A DNA stretch of 64,000 nt from Actinomycetota bacterium (GTDB lineage Bacteria > Actinomycetota > Actinomycetes > Mycobacteriales > Mycobacteriaceae). The DNA lies in the NCBI GenBank assembly GCA_018268465.1, contig JAFDWN010000037.1:43239-107238 (forward strand). Direction: 5' to 3'. Position numbers and translations under genes: made by a program. Below, piece by piece: positions 561-61,331 of this stretch. Every line of letters begins with the position of its first letter. Positions within the stretch are counted from its first letter, which is position 1. The notes beneath the pieces were generated by a model. The model was not told the DNA's origin and did no database searches. It was given only the letters and a program-made list of their open reading frames with translations.

Positions 561-567
561 GGCAGGT

Positions 568-1251: not shown

Positions 1252-1268
1252 CGTAGCCCGGTCACAGC

Positions 1269-4711: not shown

Positions 4712-4717
4712 GTCCCG

Positions 4718-4723
4718 AGTGTA
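4718..4723 (-). promoter_or_regulatory. Leaderless-type -10 box TACACT for ilvE
   Basis: TACACT on the minus strand ends 6 nt before the ilvE ATG. Confidence 0.45.
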
Positions 4724-4764
4724 TATCTCGTGCGCCAGCGAGATTTCGCCCGGCGCACGCCGTG

Positions 4765-5871: not shown

Positions 5872-5910
5872 GAGGCCCAACCCTATCGCCGGGTGATTAG
5901 GGTGAACGCC
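5872..5910. promoter_or_regulatory. Compact divergent gcvT/pepA promoter with mirrored TAGGGT boxes
   Basis: The 39-bp gap holds TAGGGT on the minus strand (5880-5885, 8 nt before the gcvT GTG) and TAGGGT on the plus strand (5898-5903, 7 nt before the pepA GTG). Together they form an inverted repeat ACCCTA-n12-TAGGGT. Both transcripts would start at or next to their start codons, and each -35 region would have to lie inside the opposite gene's -10 to start region. Confidence 0.5.
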
Positions 5911-42456: not shown

Positions 42457-42483
42457 CGGGCCGGCCCGGGGGTGCACCCTGCT

Positions 42484-45324: not shown

Positions 45325-45379
45325 GTGTCTCTTTCTTTGTCGCAGTTGCGGTTCGGCGTCGCCGTTGAGGTTCGGCGGG

Positions 45380-46780
45380 TCACATCGCGGGCAGCGGATC
45401 GGTGAGGTCGCGGCCTGTCCAGTCCTTCGCCCATACCGCGACGATCAGCGCCGACAGCGAGTACAGGACAAGCATGACCATGATCGGGATGGGACTTCCG
45501 GTCGCCGCCGCCACCCAGGCGGCGACGACGACCGGGCCGATGCCCGTGGCGATCACAGCGGCGATCTCGCGGATGACGGCGGTGAGGGTGTAGCGGTTCC
45601 GGGCACCGAAGATCTCGGGGATCGAGACGTTCTCCAGCGACGCCGGGCTCAGCACCGCGACGTTGTGCAGCACGACGTAGCCGACGAACACCCACAGCAG
45701 ATTCTTCGAGTCGATGGCCAGCATCGTGGGAACGATCACGACCAGGGCCGCAGACATCACGAGGATGTACATCCGGCGACGGCCGAACTTGTCGCCCAGC
45801 GCTCCGATGAGCGGGATGGTGACGAACCCGACAAGTGAGGACACGATGACCGCGTTGGCGCTGACGCCCTTCTGCAGTCCGAGCGTGAGGGTCATGAACG
45901 AGATGAGGTATGTCTGGATCAGACCCGAGTTGCCGGCTTGTCCGAACCGCAGGAAGAACGACACCAGGATCGCCTTGATCGGCTTGTGCTGCATGGCTTC
46001 CACGGTGCGGGTGTCGGCGCCGGATCCGGCCTTCTCCAGGATCTCCTCACGAGACAAGGCACGCCCGTCCACGACGTCCTCGCGCTCCTCGAATACAGGG
46101 CTTTCCTTGAGGTTGAGTCGGACCCAGACCGCGAACACCATCACCACGGCGCTGGCGATGAACGGAATCCGCCAGCCCCATGCGATGACGTCGCTCTCGA
46201 CCATCACCGCGAGCAGGATGGCCCAGATGGCTGATGCGAACAACGTGCCGCAGTTGGTGCCGAGCCCGACGAGGGAAGCGACGAACCCGCGGCGTTCGGC
46301 GGGGGCGTACTCGGCGAGCATCACGCCCGCACCACTGATCTCGGCACCCGCTCCGAATCCCTGAAGCAGGCGCAGGGCGACGAGCAGGATAGGTGCCAGC
46401 ATCCCCACTTGCCCGTAGGTGGGCAGGAATCCGATCAACGTAGTGGCCGCACCCATGAGGGCGATGGTGTAGAAGAGCACTTTGCGTCGGCCGATGCGGT
46501 CGCCGAGGCGACCGAAGAACAGGGCGCCGAGCGGTCGCGCGATGTAGCCGACCCCGTAGGTGGCCATCGACAGGACGACCGCCATGCCGGCGCTTTCACC
46601 GGAGAAGAACAACTGGCTGAAGACCAGCGCAGCGGCTAGTGAGTAGAGCTGGAAGTCCATGAACTCGAGTGCGGTGCCGAGCCATCCCGATACGGCGGCT
46701 CGTACCAGATCGGCCATACTGCGCCGGGCGGCGGGCGGATGCTCGGCATCCCGCGATTCGGGGGTGTGTGCTGTGGTCAT
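45380..46780 (-). CDS. MFS transporter, metabolite:H+ symporter (MHS) type
   Basis: A 466-residue permease with about 12 hydrophobic helices. The loop motifs [15 protein letters not shown] (after helix 2) and [13 protein letters not shown] (after helix 8) mark the major facilitator fold; [14 protein letters not shown]-like sequence ([15 protein letters not shown]) and [12 protein letters not shown] fit the MHS group of organic-acid importers (KgtP, ShiA, ProP). Inside this operon it is probably the importer of the sugar acid. ATG 46780 has GGGAAG upstream. Confidence 0.9.
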
Positions 46781-46820
46781 CGTGCTTCCCTGTTCTCGGT
46801 CCGGTGAGTGGTTTCGAAAT

Positions 46821-47825
46821 TCACAGTTGGATAAGGACTTTGGCGGAGGCCGACGCGTCACGGGCAGTGACGAAGGCATCCACGGCCTCGGCGGCCGGCA
46901 CTACGTGCGAGATCACCTCGTCGAGGCGGCCGGTGGTGGCGAGCAGCGAGATGGCGTCGTCGATCTCGGTCGCGAAGCGGAATGCCCCGACGAGGGTGAC
47001 TTCCTTGGCCAGCATGGGCGCCAGGTTCACCCCGATCTCGGCGTTGGGCAGGGTGCCGACCTGCACGACCGTGCCCGCCCGGCGCACCGCCCGAACGGCC
47101 TGGGTAACCGAGACGCCGACACCCGAGCACTCGAAGACGACGTCGTAGGACTCGTCGTCGATCGCGTCGCGCCCGACGAGAACGGTTTCGGTCGCACCCA
47201 GCGCCACCGCACGGGTCAACGGCTCGGGCCGAAGGTCGCTGACGCCGATCGCGCCGGCCCCGGCTTTCGCGACGGCGGCGACGACGAGCAGGCCTATGGG
47301 GCCCGCGCCGATGACGAGCACACGTCGGCCCGACATGTCACCGGCCAGATTGACGGCGTGGATAGCCACCGCCAGGGGCTCCGCCAGCGCCGCACGCTGA
47401 AGCGGAAGCCCTTCGGGCAGTGCACGGATCATGTGGTTCTCGACGACCAGCAGTTCGGCGGCACCGCCCTGTCGGTGCGGGAACGTGGCGGCGCTGCCGA
47501 GATAGTCGCCACCGGGGCACAGATGCGGGCGGTCCCGCAGCGCCGGTGTCGGTGGTCCGAAGCGGGCCGGGTGAACGGTGACCGGGAGACCGAACGGATA
47601 CCGGCCGGAGGGATCGAGATCGACGACGGCCGACAACTCGTGTCCCGGCGTGAACGGCTCGCGAACGACGTTCTCGCCGTTGGCCCCGTGGAAGTAGTAG
47701 TGCAGGTCCGACCCGCAGATGCCGACGTACCCGACGCGGAGCCGAACCTCACCGGCGCCTGGTTCCGGATCGGGGCGGTCCTCCCACCGGATGTCCTCTT
47801 TGCCGTGGATTGCGAGCGCTTTCAT
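46821..47825 (-). CDS. Zinc-type medium-chain dehydrogenase, IdnD/RspB-like hexonate 5-dehydrogenase
   Basis: A 334-residue MDR enzyme. The catalytic-zinc region GICGSDLHYYFHGANGENV and TPGHELSAVV resembles L-idonate 5-dehydrogenase; the Rossmann motif is VIGAGPIGLLVVAAVAKAG. The lobe that normally has four structural-zinc cysteines has only one (PHLCPGGD), so that site is lost. It should oxidise a hexonate at C5; with a fructuronate reductase beside it, L-gulonate to D-fructuronate is the most coherent reaction (inference). Its start overlaps the upstream stop by 4 bp. Confidence 0.85.
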   Translation of the reverse strand: MKALAIHGKEDIRWEDRPDPEPGAGEVRLRVGYVGICGSDLHYYFHGANGENVVREPFTPGHELSAVVDLDPSGRYPFGLPVTVHPARFGPPTPALRDRPHLCPGGDYLGSAATFPHRQGGAAELLVVENHMIRALPEGLPLQRAALAEPLAVAIHAVNLAGDMSGRRVLVIGAGPIGLLVVAAVAKAGAGAIGVSDLRPEPLTRAVALGATETVLVGRDAIDDESYDVVFECSGVGVSVTQAVRAVRRAGTVVQVGTLPNAEIGVNLAPMLAKEVTLVGAFRFATEIDDAISLLATTGRLDEVISHVVPAAEAVDAFVTARDASASAKVLIQL

Positions 47826-49312
47826 GACACTTCCCTGTGGTCGACGGCTTGGGTGGCTTCTTTTGCGGCGGCGCGGATTCCGCCGTGCACGATTGTTTCG
47901 AGGAGGTCGGCGACCCGGTTGCTGAACGCGGCGTGCGCAACCAGATCGTCGGGTAGGAATCCGCCGCGCAGAACCGCGAGTGCGTGGTCGCGCGCTCCGT
48001 GGGCGCCGCGGGTGGCCTCCGCCAACCGGCCTCGGGCGGGTTCACGAACCGCCGCGGCCTCGGGGCCTGGGTCGAATCCCGGCGGTGGAGCCACCGCTGC
48101 GATCCATCCGGCGACCGTCAACGCGAGGAGATGGGGCACGCGGCCCGCACGCAGTGCGATCAGGGCGGGTTCGGGAATGCGCTGCAGCAGTTTCACCGAT
48201 CCGTCGGTCCCCACCTGCGAGGTCCGGTGGCCCAGTGCGGCATTGGCCCACCGGTGCGACAGCGAGTCGAGGTAGGCCTCGACGGCGAAGTCGCGGGGCA
48301 GTTCGACGGTGGGCAGGTACTCACCGGCAATGCAGGCGTGCACGGCGTCGCGGACGAAGTCCTGCGCCCACGCGTCGGCGATGGTCGCGCGGCCGTCCAG
48401 GATTCCGAGGTAGGCGATCAGCGAATGCGATCCGTTGAGCAGGCGAAGTTTGACGAGCTCGTAGGATTCGACCTCGTCGCTCATCACGACGCCGGCACGA
48501 TCCCATGCGGGCCGACCGGCGGCGAAGTCGTCTTCGAGCACCCACATGGTGAAGTCCTCCGCGGGTACTGGACAGCGGTCGTCGACGCCGAGTAACTCGC
48601 CGATGTCGGCGATCGTTCGGTCGGTGGTGGCGGGCACGATGCGGTCGACCATCGAGTTCGGGAAGGCGACGTGGTTGGCGACGAAGCTCAGCACGTCGTT
48701 CGGGGCGCCGCTGGCATGCAGGTATTCGGTGAGGACGGCACGCGTCGCGTCTCCGTTGGATTGGAGGTTGTCGCAGGACAACACGGTGATCGGCGCTCCC
48801 GACGCCGCGCGGATGCTCAGCCCTCTCGCGATCAGCCCGATCGTGCTGCGTGGGTGACCGGGGTCGGCGATATCGGCACGCACGTCGGCGAGGTCGTGAT
48901 CGAGAGCGCCGTTCCGCGGGGATCGGCAGTAGCCCACTTCGCTGACGGTGAGGGACAGAATGCGGTGCGCCGGGTTGGCGACCGCCGACACGAAGGCGGC
49001 GGGATCGTCCGTGAGTACGCCGAGTCCGCGGTGCACGTCCACGACGCCGGCACGGCGGCCCTTGTCGGAGAATTCGAGGATCGAGTAACGCCCTTCTTGG
49101 CCGGCCATGGCCGCCACGACGTCTCGCGAGCGGTTCGCAAATCCGTAGATGCCCCAATCCCCTGCCTCGGCTGCCAGGGCCGTCGCGGTGTAGACCGCGG
49201 CATGAGCGCGGTGGAAGTTACCCAGGCCCAGGTGCACGATGCCCGCGGTGTCGCCGGCCGATGCGCCGAGCAGCGCACCAGTTGGTGTGGTGTGGCGTGC
49301 CAGTCGCTGCAT
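47822..49312 (-). CDS. uxuB: Mannitol-dehydrogenase-family oxidoreductase, probably fructuronate reductase
   Basis: A 496-residue polyol/uronate dehydrogenase. The N-terminal Rossmann region IVHLGLGNFHRAHAA and the catalytic Lys-Asn-His set in VKLRLLNGSHSLIAYLG are diagnostic of the mannitol/fructuronate/tagaturonate group. Next to a D-mannonate dehydratase it most likely reduces D-fructuronate to D-mannonate. It is the first gene of the operon; GAGAGGA precedes the ATG and the divergent IclR gene is 163 bp away. Confidence 0.9.
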   Translation of the reverse strand: MQRLARHTTPTGALLGASAGDTAGIVHLGLGNFHRAHAAVYTATALAAEAGDWGIYGFANRSRDVVAAMAGQEGRYSILEFSDKGRRAGVVDVHRGLGVLTDDPAAFVSAVANPAHRILSLTVSEVGYCRSPRNGALDHDLADVRADIADPGHPRSTIGLIARGLSIRAASGAPITVLSCDNLQSNGDATRAVLTEYLHASGAPNDVLSFVANHVAFPNSMVDRIVPATTDRTIADIGELLGVDDRCPVPAEDFTMWVLEDDFAAGRPAWDRAGVVMSDEVESYELVKLRLLNGSHSLIAYLGILDGRATIADAWAQDFVRDAVHACIAGEYLPTVELPRDFAVEAYLDSLSHRWANAALGHRTSQVGTDGSVKLLQRIPEPALIALRAGRVPHLLALTVAGWIAAVAPPPGFDPGPEAAAVREPARGRLAEATRGAHGARDHALAVLRGGFLPDDLVAHAAFSNRVADLLETIVHGGIRAAAKEATQAVDHREVS

Positions 49313-49330
49313 GCCCGTCCTCTCGAATTG

Positions 49331-49388
49331 CGTGAACCCGGTCCGTCAGCGTTCCGTATTATGAACCGATTGTGTCGTAATGCGAACC
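49331..49388. promoter_or_regulatory. Candidate IclR operator in the divergent promoter region
   Basis: Three GAACC cores lie at 49334-49338, 49363-49367 and 49384-49388. The last two sit in related 13-mers, CGTATTATGAACC and CGTAATGCGAACC (10 of 13 identical), whose starts are 21 bp apart, two helical turns. The segment is more AT-rich than its surroundings and separates uxuB from the IclR gene. Confidence 0.45.
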
Positions 49389-49475
49389 ACACTGACATGC
49401 CCGTGCAGATGTGTCAAGGGTCACTGCGCCTGATGTGCCAAGATCTCCGTTACGGCCGTGCAGCAGAGGGGGCGG

Positions 49476-50282
49476 ATGAGCAGCGAACGCACCGACCCCC
49501 CAGTGGGCAGTGTCGACAAAGCGCTCGCGTTGATCGAACTGCTCGCCGAAGCCGGGCCCGACGGGATGGCCCTACGCGACGTGGTCGAGGCCAGCGGATT
49601 CAACAAGGCATCGGCGCATCGCACGCTGCAGGCGCTTCAACACCGAGGTTTCGCCGAGCAGGACACTGACCAGCGTTATCGACTGGGTTCGCGGCCGGCA
49701 CTGCTGGTCGCGCGATTCCAGCGCGAGGAGAACCTGCCGACGCTGTTTCGTCCCGCGCTACTCGCCATCTGCCAGGAGGTGCAGGAACTCGTGCACCTGG
49801 GCATTCTCGAGGGCCGCAACGTGCTCTACCTCGACAAGGTGGAACCCGACCACACGCTGCGGGTGTGGTCGCGCGTCGGCCGTCAGGTCAGCGTGTTGAC
49901 GACCGCGTTGGGCCGCGCCATGGTGGCCGGTGAGGGCACCTCCGATGCGCAGCTCTCGGTCTACACCGCCGAGGCCGATTCCGCTGTCGCCGAGAAGTTC
50001 CGCCGCGCCGTGCAGGATGCGCGCGTACATGGCTACGCCGCCGAGCGCGAGGAGAACGAGGCCGGGATCTGTTGTGTCGGAGTGGCATTGACGAGAACGA
50101 CGGGCCGATCCGTCGCGGTGAGCATCACCGGGCCGAGCGACCGGATGGGGGCCGGTCGACTCGACGAATTGGGACGACGTCTGCGTGAGGTACTCCGCGA
50201 CTCCGCACCGCCGGGTTTCACCGTCGCACCCGCCAGCGACACCGACCGGAAGGTCGATGTGGGGGTCCCGGGTCGCGCGTGA
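49476..50282 (+). CDS. IclR-family transcriptional regulator
   Basis: A 268-residue regulator: an N-terminal winged helix (SVDKALALIELLAEAGPDG, ASGFNKASAHRTLQALQHRGF) and a C-terminal effector domain with NVLYLDKVEPDHTLRVWSRVG, TALGRAMVA and the ENEAGICCVGVAL loop that holds effector in IclR, KdgR and GntR-like sensors. Divergent from the sugar-acid operon, so it is probably its regulator, with KDG or a hexonate as effector (inference). ATG 49476 has GAGGGGG upstream; GTG 49458 is an alternative. Confidence 0.9.
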   Translation: MSSERTDPPVGSVDKALALIELLAEAGPDGMALRDVVEASGFNKASAHRTLQALQHRGFAEQDTDQRYRLGSRPALLVARFQREENLPTLFRPALLAICQEVQELVHLGILEGRNVLYLDKVEPDHTLRVWSRVGRQVSVLTTALGRAMVAGEGTSDAQLSVYTAEADSAVAEKFRRAVQDARVHGYAAEREENEAGICCVGVALTRTTGRSVAVSITGPSDRMGAGRLDELGRRLREVLRDSAPPGFTVAPASDTDRKVDVGVPGRA

Positions 50283-50298
50283 TCACGCGTTCAAGGTC

Positions 50299-50529
50299 TC
50301 AATCGCTGACTGCCTCCGCGATCATCGCGGCGATCTGATCGGCACCGGCATCCGCGGTATCGATGACCTCCGCTTCGTCGTGCAGCCACATGCGGGCCGC
50401 CTCGGCGTAGGGCTCCAGTTGTCGGAATCGGAACGCGGAAGGACCCCTATCGGTGTCGCTTTCGATGCGCCGACGGAGCGTTTCCCGGTCGGTGTCGACC
50501 GACGTCTCCGTGACGTCGACCGACCCGTC
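50299..50529 (-). pseudogene. C-terminal remnant of a P-loop kinase-like ATP-binding protein
   Basis: The last ~75 residues of a minus-strand frame look like the end of small ATP-binding/kinase proteins: DTDRETLRRRIESDTDR (lid-type arginines), an RFRQLEPYAEAARMWLHD helix and EVIDTADAG. There is no P-loop or N-terminal half, and upstream sequence in the frame turns into low-complexity text that overlaps the next gene's start region. I read it as a decayed gene stub; a short real gene cannot be excluded. Confidence 0.4.
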
Positions 50530-50573
50530 GGGGTGCCCCCTCGCGGCGCTGGGCCGATCCGACGTTTGCGAGG

Positions 50574-52127
50574 ATGAGTTCCGTGACCGGGCCATCGCCT
50601 CCGCCGGACGCGCCGTCGGGTCCGCCACCACGTCCCGATCTCGGCGCCAATGCCGCCGCGGCACTGGTGGTCCTGTCATCGGCGGCGGTGCTGGTGGTGG
50701 AGATCACCGCGCTGCGCCTGTTGGCTCCCTACCTCGGCCTCACTCTCGAGACCAGCACTCTGGTCATCGGAATTGCCTTGGCGGCAATAGCTCTCGGATC
50801 CTGGGCCGGTGGCCGCATGGCCGACCGAACTGATCCGCGCAAGCTCATCGGCTCCGCGCTCGGCGGATCGGGCGCCGTCGTCGCGCTCACTCCGTCGATG
50901 CTGCGCATGGCGGCGGAATGGGCGCCGCCGCTGCTGCTCATCGTGGCTTCGCTGACCATCCTCATTCCCGGCGCGCTGCTGTCCGCGGTGACACCGATGG
51001 TGACAAAGCTGCGCCTGACCACACTCGACCAGACGGGAACGGTCGTGGGACAACTGTCCGGGCTGGCCACGGTGGGCGCCATCGCCGGCACTGTCCTCAC
51101 CGGCTTCGTCCTGATCTCGCGGTTGCCGGTGAGCGCCATCCTGATCGGACTCGGGGCGCTGCTGGTGGCCGGCGGAGCCGTCGTCGAATGGCGAATGCGC
51201 CGATGGAACCGCGTCAACGCCGCCGGACTCGCGCTGATCATCGCCGTCGGCGGCCTCGCCAGCTACGTCGCGCCCGGCGGCTGCGACGTCGAAACCAAGT
51301 ACCACTGTGTGCGAGTCGTGACCGACCCGGATCGTGGTAGCGGCGCCACGCTCGTCCTGGACGGGTTGAACCACTCCTATGTCGACCTCGACGATCCCAC
51401 CCGGCTGCAGTTCACCTACGTTCGCGCGTTCGCGGCGGCGGTCGACGCGGCGTTTCCCGCCGGCCAACCGGTGAAGGCGTACCACCTCGGCGGCGGGGGG
51501 CTCACCTTCCCGCGGTATCTCGCTGCCACCCGGCCCGGGACGCGCAGCGTCGTCGCCGAAATCGACGAGGGTGTGGTGCGCACCGACCGTGGCCGGCTCG
51601 GCCTGGCGTCGGCAACGGACATCGACGTCCGCGTCGAGGACGGCAGGCTCGGGCTGCGGCGACTGGAAGCGGGCAGCAGAGACCTGATCGTGGGCGACGC
51701 GTTCGGCGGCGTCAGTGTGCCATGGCATCTCGCCACCACCGAGGCGCTCGCCGATGTACGCCGGGTGCTCAACGACGACGGGGTGTATGTCGCCAACCTC
51801 ATCGACTACGGCGAGATGGCATTCGTGCGCGCCGAAATCGCCACTGTCCTAGAGAACTTCGACTACGTCATGCTCGCCGGCGAACCCCGCGACCTGGGTA
51901 TCGGCCCGGTGGCCGCCCCCGACGGGGGCAACGTCGTGGTCGTGGCCGCCAACCGGCCACTCGACACCCGCGCCCTGCAGAAGGCACTGAGCGGTTGGAG
52001 TACGGGCTGGACGATCCTGGACGGCGACGCGCTGCGCGGTTGGATCGGTACTGCCGAGACGCTCACCGACGACTACGCACCCGTCGATCAGCTCCTCACA
52101 CCGGCCCGGGCGCGCGGCGCGCGGTAG
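50574..52127 (+). CDS. Membrane-fused spermidine synthase-like protein
   Basis: A 517-residue protein. Residues ~25-235 are a hydrophobic domain of several helices (VVLSSAAVLVVEITALRLLAP, STLVIGIALAAIALGSWAGG, and others). Residues ~240-517 are a spermidine-synthase-type methyltransferase fold, with YHLGGGGLTFPRYLA in place of the usual GGGEG loop and VGDAFGG where polyamine synthases have an Asp-rich catalytic stretch. M. tuberculosis SpeE has the same membrane fusion. The altered motifs leave real aminopropyl transfer in doubt. It is convergent with an amine oxidase. Confidence 0.82.
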   Translation: MSSVTGPSPPPDAPSGPPPRPDLGANAAAALVVLSSAAVLVVEITALRLLAPYLGLTLETSTLVIGIALAAIALGSWAGGRMADRTDPRKLIGSALGGSGAVVALTPSMLRMAAEWAPPLLLIVASLTILIPGALLSAVTPMVTKLRLTTLDQTGTVVGQLSGLATVGAIAGTVLTGFVLISRLPVSAILIGLGALLVAGGAVVEWRMRRWNRVNAAGLALIIAVGGLASYVAPGGCDVETKYHCVRVVTDPDRGSGATLVLDGLNHSYVDLDDPTRLQFTYVRAFAAAVDAAFPAGQPVKAYHLGGGGLTFPRYLAATRPGTRSVVAEIDEGVVRTDRGRLGLASATDIDVRVEDGRLGLRRLEAGSRDLIVGDAFGGVSVPWHLATTEALADVRRVLNDDGVYVANLIDYGEMAFVRAEIATVLENFDYVMLAGEPRDLGIGPVAAPDGGNVVVVAANRPLDTRALQKALSGWSTGWTILDGDALRGWIGTAETLTDDYAPVDQLLTPARARGAR

Positions 52128-52194
52128 ACGCCGCTGATACAGCATGACCTCCTGGGCGACGGGGTGCCGAGCGATCCGAAACGGTTTCCCCATC

Positions 52195-52216
52195 CGGGGT
52201 CCCGACTGAGACCCCG
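52195..52216. terminator. Hairpin between convergent genes
   Basis: CGGGGTC and GACCCCG form a 7-bp perfect stem with an 8-nt loop between the spermidine-synthase-like gene and the convergent amine oxidase. There is no U-tract, so a terminator role is tentative. The rest of the 205-bp gap shows nothing clear. Confidence 0.35.
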
Positions 52217-52332
52217 TTGATATGGGAGTCTGCGATCAGAACGACGATTTCGGTTCAAAGCCATTGAACTACAACACTATCCAGCGTGATCTAGCGAGCG
52301 GTGGCCGATGTCCATCGCAAGTCCACCGTGGC

Positions 52333-53664
52333 CTACTCTGTCGAGTTCCCGCCTGATACCAAGAGTCGACCGGCGCGACGGCCACTAGCGTACGCGCCGT
52401 CGGCATAGCCGGGCCGCGCGCTGCTGGTGTGCTCGCCCGCGAACAGCAGCCGACCGTGCGCCGGTTCGGCGAGCACGTCGAACATCGTCGGGTCGGCGCC
52501 GGGCGGGCACTGCGTGTAGGCGCCGCGGGTGCAGGGGTCGGTCGTCCATGACGTCACTGCCGACGCGACCGGTTCGGGAACCGGGCGCCCGAAAACCTCT
52601 GCCAACAAAGCCTTCAACCAATCGACGGCCTGCGCAGGAGGACGGGCGAGCACGTGGGGCGTGTTGGTGTGAAACAAGTGCGCACACAACACCGGACCCG
52701 CTGCGAATGCGTCGAGATCGAATACCCAGATCGAAGGCTCGTCCTCATCGGAGGGATACACGATGAGATGCGAGATGCCGTCGTCGCGCCAGAAGGCCGA
52801 CTCGAAAGCGAGCGCGATCTTCTCGTAGCGGCCGAACCCCAGGGCGTCGACGGCCCGCTGCATCGGTGCGGGCAGCGGCGGATCGAATATCGGGCTGCCC
52901 TCCTTGAGGACGCCGAGGGGCACGGCGACGACCACGTGGGAACCGGCTTCGTGCGAGCCATCCGCGCATGCAGCGCGGATCCCGCCGGCCTCGACCTCGA
53001 TCGAGGCCACCTCCGCACCCAGGCGGATGTTCAGTCCAGTCGCCAGCTGAGTTACCACTGTCAGGTACCCGTCGCGCGGAAGGTCGCCGAACAGCTCACC
53101 CTCGAACTCGTCGGCGAGTGAGATCCATTGCAGCGACTGGTTCTCGACGGTGTCCGCGGCGTTGGCCTCGAGCTCGGCCCGCAGCTCCTGGCGCAGCCGG
53201 CGCGCGACGGCGGGGCTCAGCCCGCGTTCCGCCAGGTAGGTTTCGACGGCGTCGTGCGCGGTCGCCGCCGGCCCCAGCCGCCGGCCGAGCGCCTCGACGG
53301 AGTCCCAGAAGGCGGCGGTCTCGGTCTGTGCGTAGAACTCGACCTCTGCGCGATCGAGTCGGCGACGCTCGGCCACGTCGAACGCCGACAGCGACGGAAG
53401 GGGGTTGCCTGCGTGCCGCGCGATACCGTGGTCGTCGCAGAAGGCGGTCAGCGGATTGCCGATGGGATGGTGAATCCAGGAGCCACCCATATCGACCGGC
53501 GTGCCGGCGAGATCGATGGTGTGCAGCCGCCCGCCGATGCGGTTGCGGGCTTCGAGCACGACGGCGTCGATCCCGGCCTGGCGCAGCGTCGATGCGGTGG
53601 CCAGCCCCGCGATCCCGGCGCCGACGACCACCACACGCTCGACGGGCCCGGCGATCTTATTCAT
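52333..53664 (-). CDS. FAD-dependent amine oxidase (monoamine/polyamine oxidase type)
   Basis: A 443-residue flavoprotein. The dinucleotide-binding motif is VVVVGAGIAGLATA (GxGxxG at 15-20), followed by the FAD-contact EARNRIGGRLHT and MGGSWIHHP. The C-terminal GRLLFAGEHTSSARPGYADGAYASGRRA closes the FAD site as in polyamine and monoamine oxidases. It should oxidise an amine to an aldehyde with peroxide release. It lies opposite a spermidine-synthase-like gene, hinting at a polyamine link. Confidence 0.9.
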   Translation of the reverse strand: MNKIAGPVERVVVVGAGIAGLATASTLRQAGIDAVVLEARNRIGGRLHTIDLAGTPVDMGGSWIHHPIGNPLTAFCDDHGIARHAGNPLPSLSAFDVAERRRLDRAEVEFYAQTETAAFWDSVEALGRRLGPAATAHDAVETYLAERGLSPAVARRLRQELRAELEANAADTVENQSLQWISLADEFEGELFGDLPRDGYLTVVTQLATGLNIRLGAEVASIEVEAGGIRAACADGSHEAGSHVVVAVPLGVLKEGSPIFDPPLPAPMQRAVDALGFGRYEKIALAFESAFWRDDGISHLIVYPSDEDEPSIWVFDLDAFAAGPVLCAHLFHTNTPHVLARPPAQAVDWLKALLAEVFGRPVPEPVASAVTSWTTDPCTRGAYTQCPPGADPTMFDVLAEPAHGRLLFAGEHTSSARPGYADGAYASGRRAGRLLVSGGNSTE

Positions 53665-53670
53665 CGGGCC

Positions 53671-53676
53671 ATTGTC
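53671..53676 (-). promoter_or_regulatory. Possible leaderless -10 box GACAAT for the amine oxidase
   Basis: GACAAT on the minus strand ends 6 nt before the ATG at 53664. Confidence 0.35.
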
Positions 53677-54448
53677 GCGCTACGCCGCAGGCGTCGGCAC
53701 CCAACTGCCGTACCGTTCGGGGCGCAAGGCGCACATTAGCTAAGGGCGAGCACGACACCCGGAGGGTTCTAAGCTGGCGCCGGACCGCCTACCCCGGCTC
53801 GGCTGCTACACCGCGCAGTGGCAGGACACCTGACCGCGCCGAAGGACTGGTCGAACTCCACCCAGCCACGTGAACACCAGGGCGTGACGCTCGTACCAAA
53901 ACGGTGGTCGCCCAATGGTTCGAACGCATTTCAGCGCCACGTCCGGGTCGCTCGTCCGATCTCATCCAGGCCTCAGCCTGGTTGCGCTGCCGGCGGCTCG
54001 CGACCACGGCCCCGGTGCGCACCCGGAATCGACGGACGACCCGACCGCGCACTCCCGAGCGTGAGCGCGGTTCGCGACGCTCAAATACTCTGTCGATTTC
54101 CGCGAGAAATGCTGTGACATTTCTGTGTGATGATCGGAATATTCATGTATCCTTCCGCCCGCTGTTGACAACGCTCTAACATGGGGAGCACCATAACCGA
54201 CACGGGGTTATGCCCCATTGGGGGGAGGATTTATCTTGGGCAGGAATTCACGCTAAATCTCGGGCTGCGCCGCCGCGCCGACGGCCGGCCATAACCGTGA
54301 CCTGTATTTCACCTTGTTCGGCCTTTCGGTGGTGCGCGCGATCCCAGCGGTTGAACAATTGATCTGAAATTCGATGGTCGTCGTTAATTCTGCCGACTGC
54401 GGCCACCCTGGTCAAAAATCGTCGACGCTGGAGAATGAAAGGGAAACC
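53677..54448. other. 772-bp intergenic stretch before the metacaspase operon
   Basis: I recognise no gene here. Up to ~54080 it is GC-rich with only short, low-complexity frames on both strands (for example 53818-54117 plus and 53789-54052 minus) that look like chance or decayed sequence. From ~54085 it turns more AT-rich than anywhere else nearby and holds the putative promoter, an inverted repeat and a strong unused Shine-Dalgarno-like GGGGGGAGG (54220-54228). If transcription begins near the TTGACA at 54165, the operon leader is ~250 nt. Confidence 0.6.
54165..54212 (+). promoter_or_regulatory. Putative promoter and operator of the metacaspase operon
   Basis: TTGACA (54165-54170) is a perfect -35 hexamer, but no good -10 box follows at 16-18 bp. 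Just downstream is a perfect inverted repeat CATAACC-n7-GGTTATG (54192-54212), a possible operator or RNA hairpin. Adjacent GGGG/CCCC runs could make alternative stems. Confidence 0.4.
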
Positions 54449-56752
54449 ATGCCCGTACCCATCGGCCCGCTGTTCGCGGGCGGGAATCAAGACATCACAA
54501 AAGACGGTTATGTCGTCAGTTATTGGCCGGACGCACACAACGATCTTTTACAGCGAGCGGGACTTCCTCCCGTCTATTACTGGCTGCCGCAGCAAGTCAC
54601 ATTGGCGAAAACCGCTGACGGCAACTACAAGTTCAGCATGATTCATTTTGTAGGGGTCCGTTCGAGTGATACGACCGTCGGCGAAACGAGCGCTGACAAT
54701 GAGGTCGCGGGAGGTCTCCTGACGTTCTCCACGGTGGCGGCCCCTCCCGCCGACGTGCTGCAACAAGCCCACAACGACCTCATCAACTGGGCGCGGGGAA
54801 ACGGCAGCCCGTACTGGAATTACGTGGGCAATCAACCACCGAACTTCACGTTTGTCCCCATCGTGAGCAATACGTGCACTCTTTCGAACACGTTGCCGGG
54901 CGCCGACGGTACGGTTCCTGCCGCCGCACCCGGGAAATCGGCACTCAATGGGAGCGCTCCACCGGCCATCACGACGACGCGCAGTTTCCTGCCGGTAGCA
55001 GTCGCGTCGCGAACGGTCCCGGCTACCTTCCGCGGCACCAACATCGACCCGATGTTGGTGAAGATGGACGGTCAGGGTCCAGGGACCATCGACCCGAACG
55101 CGGATAAGGCATTCAGTGGGCTGCTCGGCAGCATTCCGGCAGCCGTCGTCTACAACGGTTTCCACATGGGCACCGGCCCGTTATTCGTCACCGAGAACAT
55201 GATGATCCGCGTGGTGAGCCCGCTCATGACGCTGGACATCGTCGGCGACTGGTCGCGCGTGCAGAGCCATTTCTCGGCCGCCGCGCACGCCGGTGACATC
55301 TGGTGGGGCGCTGATATCAAGGCCCAGTTCGACAGCTTGCGCGAAAGCGGCGATATTCAGGTCAACATGTTCATAGATCAGTCGCTGCCGGGCGCCGACA
55401 AACTCCAGGACTACATGGATAAGCGCAGCGATATGGTTTTCCAGAAGTTCATGGACCTTGCCAAGCAGGCGATCTTCGATCCGGCGCCGTTCAACGAACA
55501 GCCGGCCCAGGCGTCGAATGGGTTTTTGGGCATCGGGGGCGGGGTTGCCATGAAATTGCGCAGGCAGCAGACCACGCTCACGCTGGATTACCACGAAACC
55601 CGCGAGATCGCTTACCTGCAACCGTTCCAGGTCACCGGGACGCTGGACGGCGTCGGCGATGCGATCCGTAGCGACCCGAGCAAGGAAAAGGTCTACTTCA
55701 TGACCGTCGACATCGGGGACTGGGACCGCAAGGTCGCTCGGATCGTGAAGCCGGTGGTCAATTGGCCGGATCCCGCCCAGCAGTGGGTCGGCGAGCCCGT
55801 CGCATTTCTCTCGGCTCAGGTCGGCTACCCGAATGCGCAGGGCGCGCTGCAGTGGGACGGCCATGTCTTCAATCCCACCGACGGCCCGGGTACACAATGG
55901 AACACCGCGGTTGCCATGAAGCAGCAGACCGATGTGACGAACGCCCCCGGCGGATGGGCGCCGGACAAAATGTTCGTCAAACGTCAGATTCATTTCACCG
56001 AACCACCCAGCCCCCTTGAGAACCCGATGGTCCGGATTCAGGTCGAGAAGAACATCGTCGATCTCGACGGCCCCGACATCGGCACGGCGGAAAACGACAT
56101 CACCCTGGAGGTACGGGTCGAGGAGGCGGGAACGCTCAGCGTCGGGCCGATCCTTCTAGGCGTTCAGCTCTCCGACAACACCCAATACGTCGAGGTGACG
56201 CTGCAGGCGGAAGGGAACACCGATGCCGGGCAACCTCGGGATCCCGTGAAGTTCGCCTTCGAATTCGCCGATCAGACCGCCCCGCGGTACTGGATGGTCT
56301 ACACGGGTCAGAAGACCTTCGTCCCCAAGTTCAAATACCAGGTGCACGTACTTGTGAAAGGGACGCTGTTCTCCCACGGGCAGGAGTGGTTCGGACCGTG
56401 GACCGAGAGCGGCGGAAGCGGCCCCCTGATGGTCAGCGTGCCCACGCCGACCGACCCCGGTGTCACCACCAAGGACCTGCCGCTATCGGCATTCGTGGCA
56501 CCGTCGACGGGGGGAAGTCCCGTTCGGCCGCCCGCATCCACTGGGCCACTACCTCCTCCGTCGACAGGACGGCCGGCGCCGGAGTATGCGGGCAGTAGGC
56601 CCGGCACCGCACCACCGCCGACGACCTACACGAAGGGCGCAGTCGGGGGCTGGAGCGCTACTCCGCCGGGCACATCGAAGGAAATGCCGGGTGAGGCATC
56701 CGATGCCGTCGCATTCACGGGCTTCGAGCCCGCGCATTCCGGGCGTCTGTGA
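54449..56752 (+). CDS. Unrecognised large protein, first gene of the metacaspase operon
   Basis: A 767-residue protein that I cannot place in a family. It has no signal peptide or membrane helix. The N-terminal ~100 residues include VYYWLPQQVTLAKTADGNYK and an AGGLLTFSTVAAPP strand pattern; the centre (~230-370) is mixed alpha/beta with the helix-like KLQDYMDKRSDMVFQKFMDL; ~440-640 looks like beta-sandwich sequence. The last ~95 residues are a Pro/Ser/Thr/Gly-rich disordered tail. GAAAGG precedes ATG 54449. It uses rare codons for a mycobacterium (CTT TTA at 54545-54550), suggesting transfer. The next gene starts 6 nt later. Confidence 0.85.
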   Translation: MPVPIGPLFAGGNQDITKDGYVVSYWPDAHNDLLQRAGLPPVYYWLPQQVTLAKTADGNYKFSMIHFVGVRSSDTTVGETSADNEVAGGLLTFSTVAAPPADVLQQAHNDLINWARGNGSPYWNYVGNQPPNFTFVPIVSNTCTLSNTLPGADGTVPAAAPGKSALNGSAPPAITTTRSFLPVAVASRTVPATFRGTNIDPMLVKMDGQGPGTIDPNADKAFSGLLGSIPAAVVYNGFHMGTGPLFVTENMMIRVVSPLMTLDIVGDWSRVQSHFSAAAHAGDIWWGADIKAQFDSLRESGDIQVNMFIDQSLPGADKLQDYMDKRSDMVFQKFMDLAKQAIFDPAPFNEQPAQASNGFLGIGGGVAMKLRRQQTTLTLDYHETREIAYLQPFQVTGTLDGVGDAIRSDPSKEKVYFMTVDIGDWDRKVARIVKPVVNWPDPAQQWVGEPVAFLSAQVGYPNAQGALQWDGHVFNPTDGPGTQWNTAVAMKQQTDVTNAPGGWAPDKMFVKRQIHFTEPPSPLENPMVRIQVEKNIVDLDGPDIGTAENDITLEVRVEEAGTLSVGPILLGVQLSDNTQYVEVTLQAEGNTDAGQPRDPVKFAFEFADQTAPRYWMVYTGQKTFVPKFKYQVHVLVKGTLFSHGQEWFGPWTESGGSGPLMVSVPTPTDPGVTTKDLPLSAFVAPSTGGSPVRPPASTGPLPPPSTGRPAPEYAGSRPGTAPPPTTYTKGAVGGWSATPPGTSKEMPGEASDAVAFTGFEPAHSGRL

Positions 56753-56758
56753 TCGGTC

Positions 56759-59746
56759 GTGTCGGTCTACACGCGCGCGGCGCCCACCCTGACCTCCACG
56801 TCAGGGTGGGCGCGGGTGGCCCTCCCCGGCCGCCGCGCATTCCTCGTGAACACAGCGTCGGCAGGTGTTTGCCGCTGCGTTCCCGAACAGCCGTCACTGG
56901 CGCGCGATGCAGCCGGGCAACCGCATGTGGCGCTCACGCTCGTGCTGGCCCACATGCCGACCAGCACCGATGCGTCCATCGCCGCTTTGGTCGTCAGCGG
57001 CTCGCTCGCCCTGACGTGCTCGTTCTCCATCGCCGCAGACGAACTCTCCGCCCTCGAAGCTCACCTCGGCGTGAAGTGCTCTCCGCTCTTCATCCGCGGG
57101 GGGTCGGCGCAGCTGCGCGATGTGGCATCGGTATACGCGCGAAGCAGCTTGATGGGCCGTGCCGAGCGATTCTGGCTCGGCACCTCCCTTCCGCCGGAGC
57201 AGGCGCTGGACGTGGTGCACTCATTCGAAGCGACCCGGTCTCAGTTGTATGTAGACACCAGGATCGAGGGAGACCTGGCGCCCGGAATCCAACCCGTGGC
57301 GCTGGACGCGCTACTGGGCGGAGTGCTGGACGGTCTCGACCGCCGCCGCTACCTGTCGATGATCGTCGTGCGAGCGGACGGCACGACGGCGGCAGTGCCC
57401 CCATGGATCGATGGCATCCCCCATGCTGAGGCCGAAACGCGAGATGCGCCGCGCCGCCTCACGATGGTGACGACCGACGATCGGCTCGTCGCCATGCCGT
57501 TCGCAATGACACCGTCCAGCGCCGTCAGACCATCCGCAGCTGCCCTGACGGCGGGCGGCGCCACCGGGCCGGCAACGCGGCTGAATCCGAACACGCAACA
57601 CTGGCAAGGGAATGACGCCATCACCTTGTTGACGAGTTCCGGCACCGGCACCTCCGGCGGTGCCGCGCTGGAGATCCCGACGCAGCGCCTCCCGCTCTAC
57701 ACGGAACCGGCTGCGCCCTTCTGGGTTGACGCAGTCGATTCCAGTGCAGCTTGGTATCCCCCGTCCTTCGTGCCGCTCATCCCGAAAGCCAGCGACGACC
57801 CCCGCACTGCCGCTTACACTTTCGAGTTTTCTCGAAGCGGCATCACGCTCGGGTCCGGGGGCACCCAGACAGCATTGACCGCCACCGTGCGCATCACCGT
57901 GGATGAACAAATGTCAGCACCCACCAAGCAGGCCCTGACGAGCGCGGGTTCACCATCCCCGCAACCGCTGCCGCTGAACAATCTGAGCGTCTCGCTGGAG
58001 ATTCCCTACCGGCGGCCCGGGTCGGCGAGTCCCGTGACACAGCGGTTCCCGGGCACCGTGACACCCGATGGGACACGCCTGACCGTCTCGGTGTCGCTAC
58101 TGGACGACTGGGTGCGCCTTGCCTATAGCGCGCTCGCCTACCCGCCGGCAGCAGGCTGCCCAGCGCCACGGCTCATCATCGACTACGCATTCACCGTCTA
58201 CCAATGGGTACCGGTCGGCGGTATCCAGACGGTCTACGGCGGAAAAATCGCTCAGCTCGCCGCCGTCGCCAGTCGAGATGAACTGCCGCCGAACGTGACC
58301 CAACCGACGCTAATCCAACACGATCACATCGTCGTCGCTCCGCGGTCATACGTTCAGTATCGACAAGAGGGGCCGCGTACCAAGGGCCTACCTGCCGGTG
58401 CCGGCACCGTACCGCTGCACTTGCCGGATGCCTCGATCGCGATTGATCGCCCGCAGTTGGTCTCCCTGATTCACCCGTTCCCGGCGCGTCGGCTGCTGAC
58501 CCGCTCGATCGTCCGCGAGGAGACAGTGGATCTGCAGTTCCCGTGCGCTTCTCTGGGAGCGCTCTACCTGCAAGTCGCAGGCGATGGAGTCACCAAGACA
58601 GCTGTCGGGTGCCAGGACGCTCTCACGTTGGGAGAGACCGGAGCGAGAGCTTTCGAAGAGATTGTCCCGCTGCGCACTTCGACGTATCGCGTATACCGCT
58701 CGCTGCAACAGCCCGGACGCTTTCTGGTCGTACCTGCCGCCTACCGGGTTGGCCGATATGCATCCAGCGAAGGCCCGAAAGCGTTTCGCCCCATCATCCT
58801 GCTCTACGGCCTGCTCGATGACGACCCTACGAAAAATCGCTATGTCCTCGCTGCGACTCTGATCGCTGATATCTCGCCGTATCAGCGTGCGCTGCTTCAG
58901 GACGCGTTGCGCGCCTTGACGCCACGCGGTTCGATGCCGACCGTCACGCTTCCCAGCGATCCGTTCGTCGGCGCCGGCATCACGTTCGCCTGGACGGTTC
59001 CCGAAGGTATGGACCAGCCGGACGCGCTGAATGTGCTCGATACGTTCACCGTGATGTTGTCGATGCCCATGGATCAGGCCGCGCTGTTGTCGGCCATGAT
59101 CAATCACAGCGCAATCCAGGGAAAAGTGACGTTCACGCTTCCCGACGGGACGGACTTCGATGCCGCCCTGGTAATCGACGGCAACGTGGTCGGCCCGCCG
59201 GATACCGGCCCGGTGACTGCAGAACTTGCCGGAAGCACGATCACGCTGACCAATCACACGCAGCAGGCGATGAACGTTACCGACGTCGCGACCATGAATG
59301 GCAGTGGCACCGTCACAATTGCACACGCCGACACGCCACTAGCTCCTGGAGCGACTTTTTCCCTGCCTGCGGTGCCGACGGCGACGGGAGCCGTGGCCAG
59401 TGCCACCGCGGCCGAACACCCGACGCTCGACGAGCTGGATGTCTTCGTCGAAGACGTGACGATGACCGTGACTTTCATCAATCAAGTCAATTTCGCAAAT
59501 CATGGCTTGACGGCATTGGCGGTTCAGGCGCATTTGAGTGGTAGCGGAAACGGTCAGGAAGCAAGCCTGCCGGAAGGCGCGACGGCGACGATGAACTTTA
59601 CGTTGCCCATCACCGCTTACCTCACCCAACACACCCTCCAATATGCCTTGAGGAAAACAAGTGCATCGGGAACAACCCTAACTGCTTGGCGAGATTGGGA
59701 CCTCAACAAAGGTGCCGTCATTGGAATCACCGCCGACCTGCTGTGA
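56759..59746 (+). CDS. Unrecognised large beta-rich protein, second gene of the metacaspase operon
   Basis: A 995-residue protein with no signal peptide, membrane helix or catalytic motif I can name. It is dominated by alternating hydrophobic/polar strands. A block near residues 650-700 (GRFLVVPAAYRVGRYASSEG, then RPIILLYGLLDDDPTKN) resembles in style the N-terminal strand block of the preceding protein. The C-terminal ~200 residues (VTAELAGSTITLTNHTQQAM, TVTIAHADTPLAPGATFSLP) read like Ig-like or bacterial adhesin-type sandwich domains. GTG start 6 nt after the upstream stop implies coupled translation; only a weak ribosome site is seen. Confidence 0.85.
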   Translation: MSVYTRAAPTLTSTSGWARVALPGRRAFLVNTASAGVCRCVPEQPSLARDAAGQPHVALTLVLAHMPTSTDASIAALVVSGSLALTCSFSIAADELSALEAHLGVKCSPLFIRGGSAQLRDVASVYARSSLMGRAERFWLGTSLPPEQALDVVHSFEATRSQLYVDTRIEGDLAPGIQPVALDALLGGVLDGLDRRRYLSMIVVRADGTTAAVPPWIDGIPHAEAETRDAPRRLTMVTTDDRLVAMPFAMTPSSAVRPSAAALTAGGATGPATRLNPNTQHWQGNDAITLLTSSGTGTSGGAALEIPTQRLPLYTEPAAPFWVDAVDSSAAWYPPSFVPLIPKASDDPRTAAYTFEFSRSGITLGSGGTQTALTATVRITVDEQMSAPTKQALTSAGSPSPQPLPLNNLSVSLEIPYRRPGSASPVTQRFPGTVTPDGTRLTVSVSLLDDWVRLAYSALAYPPAAGCPAPRLIIDYAFTVYQWVPVGGIQTVYGGKIAQLAAVASRDELPPNVTQPTLIQHDHIVVAPRSYVQYRQEGPRTKGLPAGAGTVPLHLPDASIAIDRPQLVSLIHPFPARRLLTRSIVREETVDLQFPCASLGALYLQVAGDGVTKTAVGCQDALTLGETGARAFEEIVPLRTSTYRVYRSLQQPGRFLVVPAAYRVGRYASSEGPKAFRPIILLYGLLDDDPTKNRYVLAATLIADISPYQRALLQDALRALTPRGSMPTVTLPSDPFVGAGITFAWTVPEGMDQPDALNVLDTFTVMLSMPMDQAALLSAMINHSAIQGKVTFTLPDGTDFDAALVIDGNVVGPPDTGPVTAELAGSTITLTNHTQQAMNVTDVATMNGSGTVTIAHADTPLAPGATFSLPAVPTATGAVASATAAEHPTLDELDVFVEDVTMTVTFINQVNFANHGLTALAVQAHLSGSGNGQEASLPEGATATMNFTLPITAYLTQHTLQYALRKTSASGTTLTAWRDWDLNKGAVIGITADLL

Positions 59747-59762
59747 ATGAAAAGAGGAGATC

Positions 59763-61211
59763 ATGGGACAGTCACTTTCGCTGCATCTCGGACTGAATGG
59801 CGTCGACGCAGCACAGTACAACGGCTGGCCGGGGACGCTCTCCGGCTGCGTCAACGACGCCAATGCCATGTACAGCATCGCCTCAGCGCAGGGGTTCACG
59901 CCCACGCAACTACTCAACGTTGCGGCGACGGCGGATGCGATCCTGACAGAAATCGGCAAGGCGGCGCATGCGCTGCACAGCGGGGATACGTTCCTGCTCA
60001 CGTACTCCGGCCATGGCGGGCGAGTGCCAGACCCGACGGGCGAGTCGCCCGATGGGCTCGATGACACCTGGGTTGCGTACGACCGCCAGCTCCTCGGTCA
60101 TGAGTTGTACAACCTCTGGAGCCAGTTCGCCCCGGGCGTTCGTATCGAGGTGTATTCGGACAGTTGCCACAGCGGAACGGTCATCCGGGATCTCGTGCTG
60201 GGGAGGAGCCCAGTCTTCGGCTCTCCCGGCGCGGGCCTCCGACAAGCGCCAGGCAACGGCGATCCCGGTATGGCTGCCTTCAGAGAGGTGTTCGAGGCGG
60301 CACCAGAAGCGCTGACCCGCAACGCGCCCATCCCACTCGCCGCTCCGGGAGACGGCGCCCACAAGGTGCCACGCGCCATTCCGCCGTTGCTCGCGCTGCA
60401 GCTCTATTACCAACACGAGCGCGAATATCGCGCCCGTCAATGGTCACGCAGCCGGGCCGATATCAGCGCCAGCGTCATCCTCATATCCGGCTGTCAGGAT
60501 AACCAGACCTCCATGGACGGCCAGACGAATGGGCTATTTACCGAGAAATTACTCGCGGTCTGGAACAACGGGAACTTCCAAGGCACCCTGCCGCAGTTCC
60601 ATAAAGCGATCGTCGCCCTGATGCCGCCCGAGCAGACGCCCAACTACTTCACCGTGGGGGCCGACGATCCGACCTTCACAAGCGCGCGCCCTCTCACCAT
60701 CGTGGACTCCACTGCCACCACGAACTCTACCGACACACCTACCACCGATTCGGGCACCGGATCGATACCTCCATCGGTACAGGGTCCATCATCGTTGAGC
60801 CAGGACACGACAGATCCCATCACGTTCACCGTCGACCTCGGTTCGAATCCCTACTACGTTTTCGAGATCACCAGCGACACGAGGAACTTCGGCGACTTCT
60901 CGGGCCGGACGACGTCGAATTTCTACGCATCGTGGGCTGACCCAGGCGCGCAAGCCCGCATGACCGACCCGGCCTACACCCTGCCGCCGGGCGCGTGGAA
61001 TGCCCTGAAAGACAATGGAACCCTGTACTACCGAGTCGGATCGACGACCAGCCTGACCGGCTGGGATAATTACCTGATTTCGGTCACCGACGCAGATGCA
61101 GCCGACGTGGCCCCGTCGATCACCATCGACGCCGTCAGCTCAGCCAAGTCTGCACCGATATCCGGTCCGGACATCAGCATTTACAGTCCTGTCGCCGTGC
61201 TGACGACATGA
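59763..61211 (+). CDS. Caspase-family (type I metacaspase-like, C14) cysteine protease
   Basis: A 482-residue protein. The N-terminal peptidase (~1-310) starts SLHLGLNGVDAAQYNGWPG, with GCVNDANAM. It has the catalytic dyad His84 (TYSGHGGR) and Cys135 (YSDSCHSGT). D133 and the DGLDDTWVAYD acidic loop (~97-107) fit metacaspases that cut after Arg/Lys. A Thr/Ser-rich linker (~315-350) leads to a C-terminal Ig-like beta domain (~350-482). There is no signal peptide. GAGGAG precedes the ATG, 16 nt after the upstream gene. A TTA codon lies at 60549-60551. It is the third gene of an operon with two unrecognised proteins. Confidence 0.92.
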   Translation: MGQSLSLHLGLNGVDAAQYNGWPGTLSGCVNDANAMYSIASAQGFTPTQLLNVAATADAILTEIGKAAHALHSGDTFLLTYSGHGGRVPDPTGESPDGLDDTWVAYDRQLLGHELYNLWSQFAPGVRIEVYSDSCHSGTVIRDLVLGRSPVFGSPGAGLRQAPGNGDPGMAAFREVFEAAPEALTRNAPIPLAAPGDGAHKVPRAIPPLLALQLYYQHEREYRARQWSRSRADISASVILISGCQDNQTSMDGQTNGLFTEKLLAVWNNGNFQGTLPQFHKAIVALMPPEQTPNYFTVGADDPTFTSARPLTIVDSTATTNSTDTPTTDSGTGSIPPSVQGPSSLSQDTTDPITFTVDLGSNPYYVFEITSDTRNFGDFSGRTTSNFYASWADPGAQARMTDPAYTLPPGAWNALKDNGTLYYRVGSTTSLTGWDNYLISVTDADAADVAPSITIDAVSSAKSAPISGPDISIYSPVAVLTT

Positions 61212-61256
61212 GGCGAGGCTGAACCCTCCTCCGGCAGCTCATCGACCAGAACATCT

Positions 61257-61331
61257 TGGTGGGCGCGGAGGGTTTCGAACCCCCGACCGCTGGTGTGTAA
61301 AACCAGAGCTCTACCACTGAGCTACACGCCC
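61257..61331 (-). tRNA. tRNA-Val (anticodon UAC)
   Basis: The minus strand folds as a full cloverleaf: acceptor GGGCGTG/CGCGCCC, D-arm with AGCTCAGTGGTAGAGCT, anticodon stem CTGGT/ACCAG with loop TTTACAC (anticodon TAC), T-arm with GGTTCGAAACC. The 3' CCA is encoded. It reads GUA (and probably other GUN) valine codons. It marks the border between the accessory region and the conserved ahpE-aceE block. Confidence 0.96.

Follow-up and report, generated by a model that had tools for sequence, protein, structure and literature searches.

A 64,000-nt stretch of an Actinomycetota genome (Mycobacteriaceae in the GTDB; assembly GCA_018268465.1, contig JAFDWN010000037.1, positions 43,239 to 107,238; hereafter the window) contains three adjacent genes, which we call A, B, and C. 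The last of them encodes a metacaspase-type protease. Judging from sequence comparisons, the trio is a real, conserved, and mobile three-gene module that joins a known type of protease to partners from an unnamed superfamily. We propose that A-B-C is a self-contained, horizontally moving module in which the protease would control two large partners that are built of the same kind of module, and we give this reading a probability of roughly 45%. A protease-controlled machine, perhaps for defense or controlled cell death, is suggested because A and B directly precede the same type of caspase wherever this could be checked, and because the three genes travel together.

The trio recurs in four phyla

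The three genes span positions 54449-61211 of the window and all lie on the + strand. A preliminary description of this DNA, made from the letters alone, had reported three open reading frames in one direction with gaps of 6 and 16 nt, and the coordinates hold: A is at 54449-56752 (767 amino acids), B is at 56759-59746 (995 amino acids, with a GTG start), and C is at 59763-61211 (482 amino acids), with 6 nt between A and B and 16 nt between B and C. For A, we preferred the start at 54449 over a longer frame from the ATG at 54374 because GAAAGGG lies immediately upstream and the N-termini of the orthologs agree. B has no clear ribosome site, and the start of its Paraburkholderia ortholog is two codons away in the alignment.

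Co-occurrence of the three genes in other genomes had been set beforehand as a refutation test, and we found A, B, and C in order at all 12 loci that could be assessed. Among plasmids, A and B each matched one record, a plasmid of Deinococcus taeanensis (NZ_CP083456), which carries A, B, and a caspase gene in that order. As a single-sequence query against genome contigs, A had no match; loci emerged only with a profile built from two sequences (the window and Deinococcus). This profile identified 11 loci in three phyla: Paraburkholderia, a Lewinella metagenome-assembled genome (MAG), Allorhizocola, Aestuariimicrobium, Tessaracoccus (three loci), an Actinomycetes MAG, and Nocardioides (three loci). 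With tblastn, B and C, which were absent from the profile query, were both located after A at 10 of these loci. At the Allorhizocola locus (L014), the contig ends inside the open reading frame that follows A, so the assessable set comprises the other 10 contig loci, the window, and Deinococcus. These 12 loci cover Actinomycetota, Pseudomonadota, Deinococcota, and Bacteroidota. With starts as we chose them, the gap between A and B is 5-14 nt in all 10 contig loci, and the gap between B and C is 7-43 nt in 9 of the 10 and 110 nt in the other (L015).

The trio is rare among the genomes that we searched. Across 396 actinobacterial genomes, A was present only in the window's own genome, apart from partial matches in another genome, G114, to proteins of the array type described below. 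B was searched for in 392 actinobacterial genomes and had one weak match outside its own genome (59 columns, E = 5e-4). A was also not found in 60 other relatives that were searched. Because these genome scans (for A, for B, and for the array profile described below) scored just two first-look candidates per genome, weak members of the families may have been missed.

The three genes share a history

We compared identity-distance matrices for A, B, and the core of C across the 12 loci. The matrices agree closely, with Mantel correlations of 0.932 for A and B, 0.911 for A and C, and 0.953 for B and C; for each pair, none of 5,000 permutations gave a value as high as the observed one. The window and Paraburkholderia loci form a pair, with support of 1.0, in the trees for A, B, and C and in the concatenated tree, and this pair stands apart from the other actinobacterial loci. 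The two loci share 69% identity in A, 47% in B, and 66% in the core of C. By these trees, the nearest relative of the window's trio is from another phylum (Paraburkholderia), and A, B, and C are a co-inherited unit that has moved together between very distant bacteria.

C is a metacaspase-type protease

C had been described as a caspase-fold protease with intact His84 and Cys135. Its assignment to Peptidase_C14 (Pfam, E = 6.8e-20) bears this out, and both residues are conserved in 12 of 12 orthologs. The closest solved sequence is 3bij, which is GSU0716 from Geobacter (E = 1.9e-77); within residues 3-315 of C, it matches residues 3-144 and 193-315. For the metacaspase TbMCA2, Cys92, Asp95, Asp211, and Ser156 have been described as parts of a potential S1 pocket (PMC4357240). 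Equivalents of the first three, as identified by motif and not by structure, are present in all 12 C proteins, and an equivalent of Ser156 is present in 10 of them. Because the S1-pocket equivalents are kept, C is predicted to be specific for Arg/Lys.

Beyond the protease core, a C-terminal domain at about residues 340-460 is common to the window, Paraburkholderia, Lewinella, and Deinococcus copies. For the C-terminal part of C, a profile search of the PDB gave chance-level results, and there was no match to A, B, or the arrays.

Caspase genes were also observed elsewhere. The window's own genome has two more Peptidase_C14 genes (G000:C1:466062-466679 and G000:C9:76787-77233). On a plasmid of Rhodococcus sp. 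DMU1 (L007, NZ_CP050953, 9989-13313), a caspase gene adjoins genes for a HEXXH putative peptide-modification protein and a radical SAM protein. A 48.6% match between an Ensifer plasmid and part of C was dropped, as it lies inside no listed open reading frame of at least 120 amino acids.

A belongs to a superfamily of tandem arrays

The preliminary description found no recognizable motif in A or B, and we also could not place either protein in a named family of Pfam, NCBIfam, or PADLOC. When we compared the 12 alignment members of each family to Pfam (one of the B sequences is a fragment at a contig end), no credible family was found, and profiles of A, B, and the superfamily described below gave only chance-level matches to the PDB. 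Two candidate identities for A were set aside: GpP_4th, which remained sub-threshold (E = 0.035 at best, in 2 of the 12 members), and a major-tail-protein PHROG (E = 0.2, in 1 of the 12). No viral relatives of A were found with the queries tried. "Two large unrecognised partners" is accurate in that neither has a family name, but they do not seem to be two unrelated proteins, as A clearly, and B probably, falls within a single superfamily.

In genome G114, two large neighboring proteins match the A profile. With a G114 array protein as the query, we obtained five plasmid records: an array in Pararhizobium, arrays in two Paracoccus strains, Deinococcus A (a weak match), and a short match in Paraburkholderia sp. 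PGU19 (40% identity; NZ_AP023181, 679655-679975), where no gene is annotated. Proteins of this superfamily are about 750-900 amino acids long and elsewhere occur as tandem arrays, with the paralogs on one strand and a few other genes between them. There are two paralogs in G114, five in Paracoccus, and four to five in Pararhizobium, where the fifth has 600 amino acids and E = 5e-8. Six array members that were compared to Pfam had no family above the cutoff.

Using hhalign, 13 A proteins aligned to 11 array proteins with a probability of 99.7% (E = 5e-27) across 555 columns; the strongest similarity is at about residues 213-302 of A. A profile of the array proteins, with A left out, was run against the 396 genomes and identified A in the window's genome (E = 2.1e-14) and proteins in G114, which is the source of two rows of that profile, and no others. 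On these alignments, A is clearly a divergent member of the unnamed array superfamily and is aligned over most of its length.

In Paracoccus, genes for EAD1-trypsin, EAD1, and AAA_16 precede the array on the same strand and end 129 nt before the first paralog; matches to STAND models were below their cutoffs. In the plasmid of Paracoccus sp. SMMA_5 (L045, NZ_CP102353, 88124-114142), these genes are followed by five paralogs of 745-818 amino acids, a PLD-like protein, and other unnamed genes, so that the whole looks like a conflict-type cluster. The Pararhizobium qamdonense plasmid (L044 and L051; NZ_CP119567, 810066-856000) has its tandem array and extra unnamed genes near genes for a Crp/Fnr regulator, a nucleotide cyclase, and cytochrome P450 proteins. 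In G114 (L023, G114:C122:1-20000, at 3-6764), two array-type proteins, the first of which is cut by the start of the contig, stand ahead of two unnamed genes that encode 320 and 359 amino acids.

B probably contains three copies of one module

Three stretches of B match the array profile, each within its N-terminal part: residues 639-795 (score 45.6), 33-126 (41.9), and 316-483 (39.3), in the numbering of the window's B. The best of 100 column shuffles scored 30.2, and a reversed control scored 16.8. When the modules were cut out of the B alignment according to the window's residues, each one scored above all 40 of its shuffles (36.2 versus 14.3, 36.8 versus 21.0, and 43.1 versus 24.5). These three matches suggest that B is probably built largely of three N-terminal modules of the array superfamily. 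Against a mixed profile of A and array proteins, B gave E = 0.0043 with a probability of 8%, and the B profile gave E = 0.012 against protein 14150 from the Paracoccus array cluster.

A ends in a conserved motif behind an unalignable tail

The last 50-115 or so residues of A (about 100 in the window's copy) look flexible and could not be aligned, except for a motif at the very end. The boundary of the tail was set automatically, and for four copies the cut defaulted to the final 100 residues. All 13 copies have the motif, [FLV]-x-[SGD]-[FYWH], within their 16 C-terminal residues; in 2,000 sets of shuffled tails, it was found in an average of 0.29 copies and at most 3. These shuffle figures overstate the significance of the motif because it was defined after the tails had been viewed. 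A conserved end behind a free linker usually marks a docking peptide or a releasable one. The tails of A contain Arg and Lys, and, purely as a hypothesis, these residues would suit cleavage by a metacaspase.

The preliminary description also stated that none of the three proteins has a signal peptide. This holds as far as inspection goes: A, B, and C do not have strongly hydrophobic N-termini, although no signal-peptide predictor was run. In A and C, no segment of 19 residues has a Kyte-Doolittle value above 1.39. B exceeds 1.6 in 6 of 12 orthologs, at about four different places (the window's B reaches 1.95 at residue 74), and so B probably, though not certainly, lacks a membrane segment.

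Proposed mechanism and alternatives

We suggest that A and B would join into a cytoplasmic assembly, with C bound to it or close by. C would be activated by a signal, which in some lineages a CHAT-type protein might relay. C would then cut after Arg or Lys, most simply within the flexible tail of A and ahead of its conserved C-terminal peptide, and this cleavage would switch the A/B assembly on. By analogy with other cassettes of a protease and its partners, the outcome would most likely be a conflict response, either a growth stop or the killing of the infected cell; a role for such a protease-gated module in conflict or regulated death is probable on the same analogy. A broader version of this idea is that A, B, and the arrays form one unrecognized class of protease-coupled assembly, in which large multimodule proteins are under the control of a caspase, a CHAT protease, or an EAD1-trypsin. 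In the A-B-caspase form, the metacaspase would free the C-terminal peptide of A and so fire a two-protein device for cell suicide or immunity that is unlike gasdermin, nuclease, or NADase effectors. We consider this broader version rather unlikely.

Several observations count against a protease-controlled module. No protease was recognized near two of the three arrays (Pararhizobium and G114), which limits the link between the superfamily and proteases to the trio and one of the three arrays. Proteases of C's type are widespread where A and B are absent: of the 21 plasmid records with a match to C, just one, from Deinococcus, also matches A. Similarly, 29 loci on viral contigs from IMG/VR (L052-L080) encode caspases of this type, with no match to A, B, or the arrays in any of the stretches fetched. 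PADLOC names only a generic caspase in the trio, and none of the nine neighboring genes that we scanned with Pfam (PADLOC was not run on them) is a known defense gene. The cleavage site in the tail of A is a guess, because basic residues are common there. The relationship of B to the arrays also has its weak points. The probabilities of the B-to-array matches are modest (14-62%, or 2-67% with other cuts), and a direct comparison of B to A was not significant. With other, worse cuts, the first and third modules still exceeded the shuffled maximum (36.1 versus 16.3 and 28.5 versus 17.3), but the middle module was level with the shuffles (20.8 versus 20.0). The three modules match each other weakly, with two of the three pairs just over the shuffles and one under. 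It might be that B is unrelated to the superfamily and that its three matches reflect a shared repeat-like pattern instead of homology. We consider this unlikely, as three separate stretches of B converge on a single N-terminal region of the superfamily, each above all of its shuffles when cut by the window's residues.

The main rival to a cytoplasmic, protease-gated module is a role at the cell wall or outside the cell, because C often carries domains of the PG_binding type. In this alternative, C would bind peptidoglycan via its C-terminal domains, and A and B would build a structure, attached to the wall or released from the cell, whose processing by C would serve lysis, fratricide, or surface remodeling. 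Pfam detects a PG_binding_1 domain in the Deinococcus C (E = 1.3e-17), and similar stretches are present in C from 9 further loci, twice in six of them. Domains of this type in 10 of 12 loci suit a role in the wall or outside the cell better than one in the cytoplasm. There are parallels among other caspases: in Sinorhizobium meliloti (L008, NZ_CP021819, 6111-10834), a caspase is fused to a GDSL-lipase-like part (below the Pfam cutoff) and adjoins a papain-family protease and a CHAP-domain protein, and a survey of metacaspases includes an amidase in a metacaspase operon of Geobacter sulfurreducens as well as metacaspases with peptidoglycan-binding domains (PMC3501461). However, we found no peptidoglycan-binding domain in C from the window or from Paraburkholderia, and none of the 37 proteins that we inspected (13 of A, 12 of B, and 12 of C) has a strongly hydrophobic N-terminus. 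On balance, a wall-associated role seems somewhat unlikely. A weaker rival casts A and B as the building blocks of a particle or of an injection-like assembly with kinship to phage tails, in which C would be a maturation protease or cargo. Tandem arrays of large divergent paralogs would suit such a particle, as would the sub-threshold matches of A to GpP_4th and the tail-protein PHROG, but the E values of those matches are at chance level. Furthermore, A from Tessaracoccus had no match in phage records, neither the A family nor one array protein had a match in viral contigs, the stretches fetched from the 29 viral-contig loci had no match to A, B, or the arrays, and no tail gene was found among ten window neighbors that were scanned. 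We therefore regard a tail-like particle as improbable. Finally, A and B might be housekeeping proteins with the protease as an incidental neighbor. That most of the arrays lack a recognized protease, that proteases of this type are common in the absence of A and B, and that neither A nor B has an assigned function would fit this idea. It is largely refuted by co-inheritance: the gene order is kept at every assessable locus across four phyla and the three distance matrices agree, which makes chance co-location very improbable.

Genes beside the trio in other genomes

A CHAT-type gene is directly upstream of A in 5 of the 12 loci (Aestuariimicrobium, the Actinomycetes MAG, and all three Tessaracoccus). 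One of these was called by Pfam (CHAT, E = 2.3e-20, with TPR sub-threshold) and four by similarity. In the one locus where we looked further upstream (L016), a gene with sigma-70 region 2 precedes the CHAT-type gene. A 308-amino-acid open reading frame at this position was rejected because its start is wrong; an overlapping frame of 187 amino acids holds the sigma-70 region. There was no CHAT match in the window. At the Deinococcus locus, a BTAD regulator is oriented away from A, and at one Nocardioides locus (L020), a LuxR-type response regulator is near the trio.

The trio is at the edge of a window-specific interval

In the window, the trio forms the right end of an interval of about 18.8 kb (42447-61254). 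The interval is bordered by a tRNA-Val gene (TAC; 61257-61331, - strand), from the 3' end of which the DNA resembles the chromosomes of relatives. From the gene order AhpE, DUF3052, aceE, as read in the window's translations, we take the host to be a Mycobacterium-like actinomycete. To delimit the interval, we searched 40 other genomes of the genus for the right flank and kept the loci of the best 19. In these best 19 of 40, similarity to the window begins at the 3' end of the tRNA (window 61254-61259), although L041 matches the tRNA separately. Four relatives (L026, L034, L041, and L042) have, 0.6-1.3 kb past the tRNA, sequence that matches the window at 41.3-42.4 kb. Because these four resume their match to the window so close to the tRNA, about 18.8 kb is extra in the window. 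The flanks of the other 15 do not decide the extent of the interval. The G+C content is 0.632 for the trio, 0.673 for the rest of the interval, and 0.693 for positions 1-42446 of the window.

The nine neighbors in the interval that were scanned with Pfam include genes for sugar-acid catabolism, a regulator, an amine oxidase, and unnamed genes. The catabolic cluster is at 42484-49312 (PfkB, a KDPG-type aldolase, a mandelate-racemase type protein, an MFS transporter, and two dehydrogenases). It is followed by an IclR regulator at 49458-50282 and by an open reading frame of 517 amino acids at 50574-52127 that has no Pfam family at E = 1e-5. None of the nine is a recognized integrase. Because the neighbors are catabolic or regulatory and lack a recognized integrase, the interval may be composite and may reflect more than one acquisition. 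No repeat of the tRNA end was reported at the far side of the interval in the window's genome. In four relatives (G009, G019, G021, and G034), the contig that carries the tRNA-Val holds, 9-16 kb away from it, a copy of its 3' end (45-46 bp; window 61256-61301) with matching orientation. As this copy recurs in four relatives, the tRNA-Val looks like a repeated site of integration.

Comparison to known systems

The preliminary description knew of no described system with this composition, and we also found no account of the trio in the open-license literature (titles and the beginnings of abstracts). Several known systems resemble it in part. C is like the GSU0716-type metacaspase (3bij) in its sequence match, its His/Cys pair, and its putative acidic pocket positions, but 3bij is a protease only, while C has extra C-terminal domains and the partners A and B. 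The canu caspase-nuclease loci are also three-gene caspase cassettes, in which the protease activates its partner; there the partner is a gated nuclease, and the caspase includes a paracaspase-like Ig fold (PMC12799240), whereas no nuclease family was found in the 12 members each of A and B. In bacterial gasdermin operons, a caspase-like protease is beside a protein that is activated by the removal of its C-terminal part (PMC9079055), and A also has a separable C-terminal peptide. However, A and B match no gasdermin model, which is a comparison of sequence families only. Gasdermins are also far smaller than A and B. With no gasdermin and no nuclease detected, we do not file the trio under either system.

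The EAD/STAND/VMAP conflict systems are linked to the superfamily by the Paracoccus array and the EAD1-trypsin, EAD1, and AAA_16/STAND-like genes that it follows. EAD1 is described as recruiting effectors, and we saw no mention there of arrays of proteins of about 800 amino acids (PMC7159879). In the trio itself, no EAD, STAND, MoxR, or vWA component was found. The CHAT-type genes upstream of A bring to mind the TPR-CHAT proteases (Craspase-like). Among the genes that we scanned near the trio, we did not notice a CRISPR gene, a TIR gene (as in Type IV Thoeris), or a gRAMP with TPR-CHAT (as in Craspase), although no targeted search was made for any of these.

In a survey of metacaspase operons, 70 of 217 had no known function (PMC3501461). 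Here, one bacterial metacaspase gains a defined partner set that is conserved in four phyla. A, and probably B, gain a superfamily, with one of its arrays tied to EAD1-trypsin/STAND-like genes and five trio loci tied to CHAT-type genes. The compact three-gene form lets the substrate and the purpose of a bacterial metacaspase be asked about directly.

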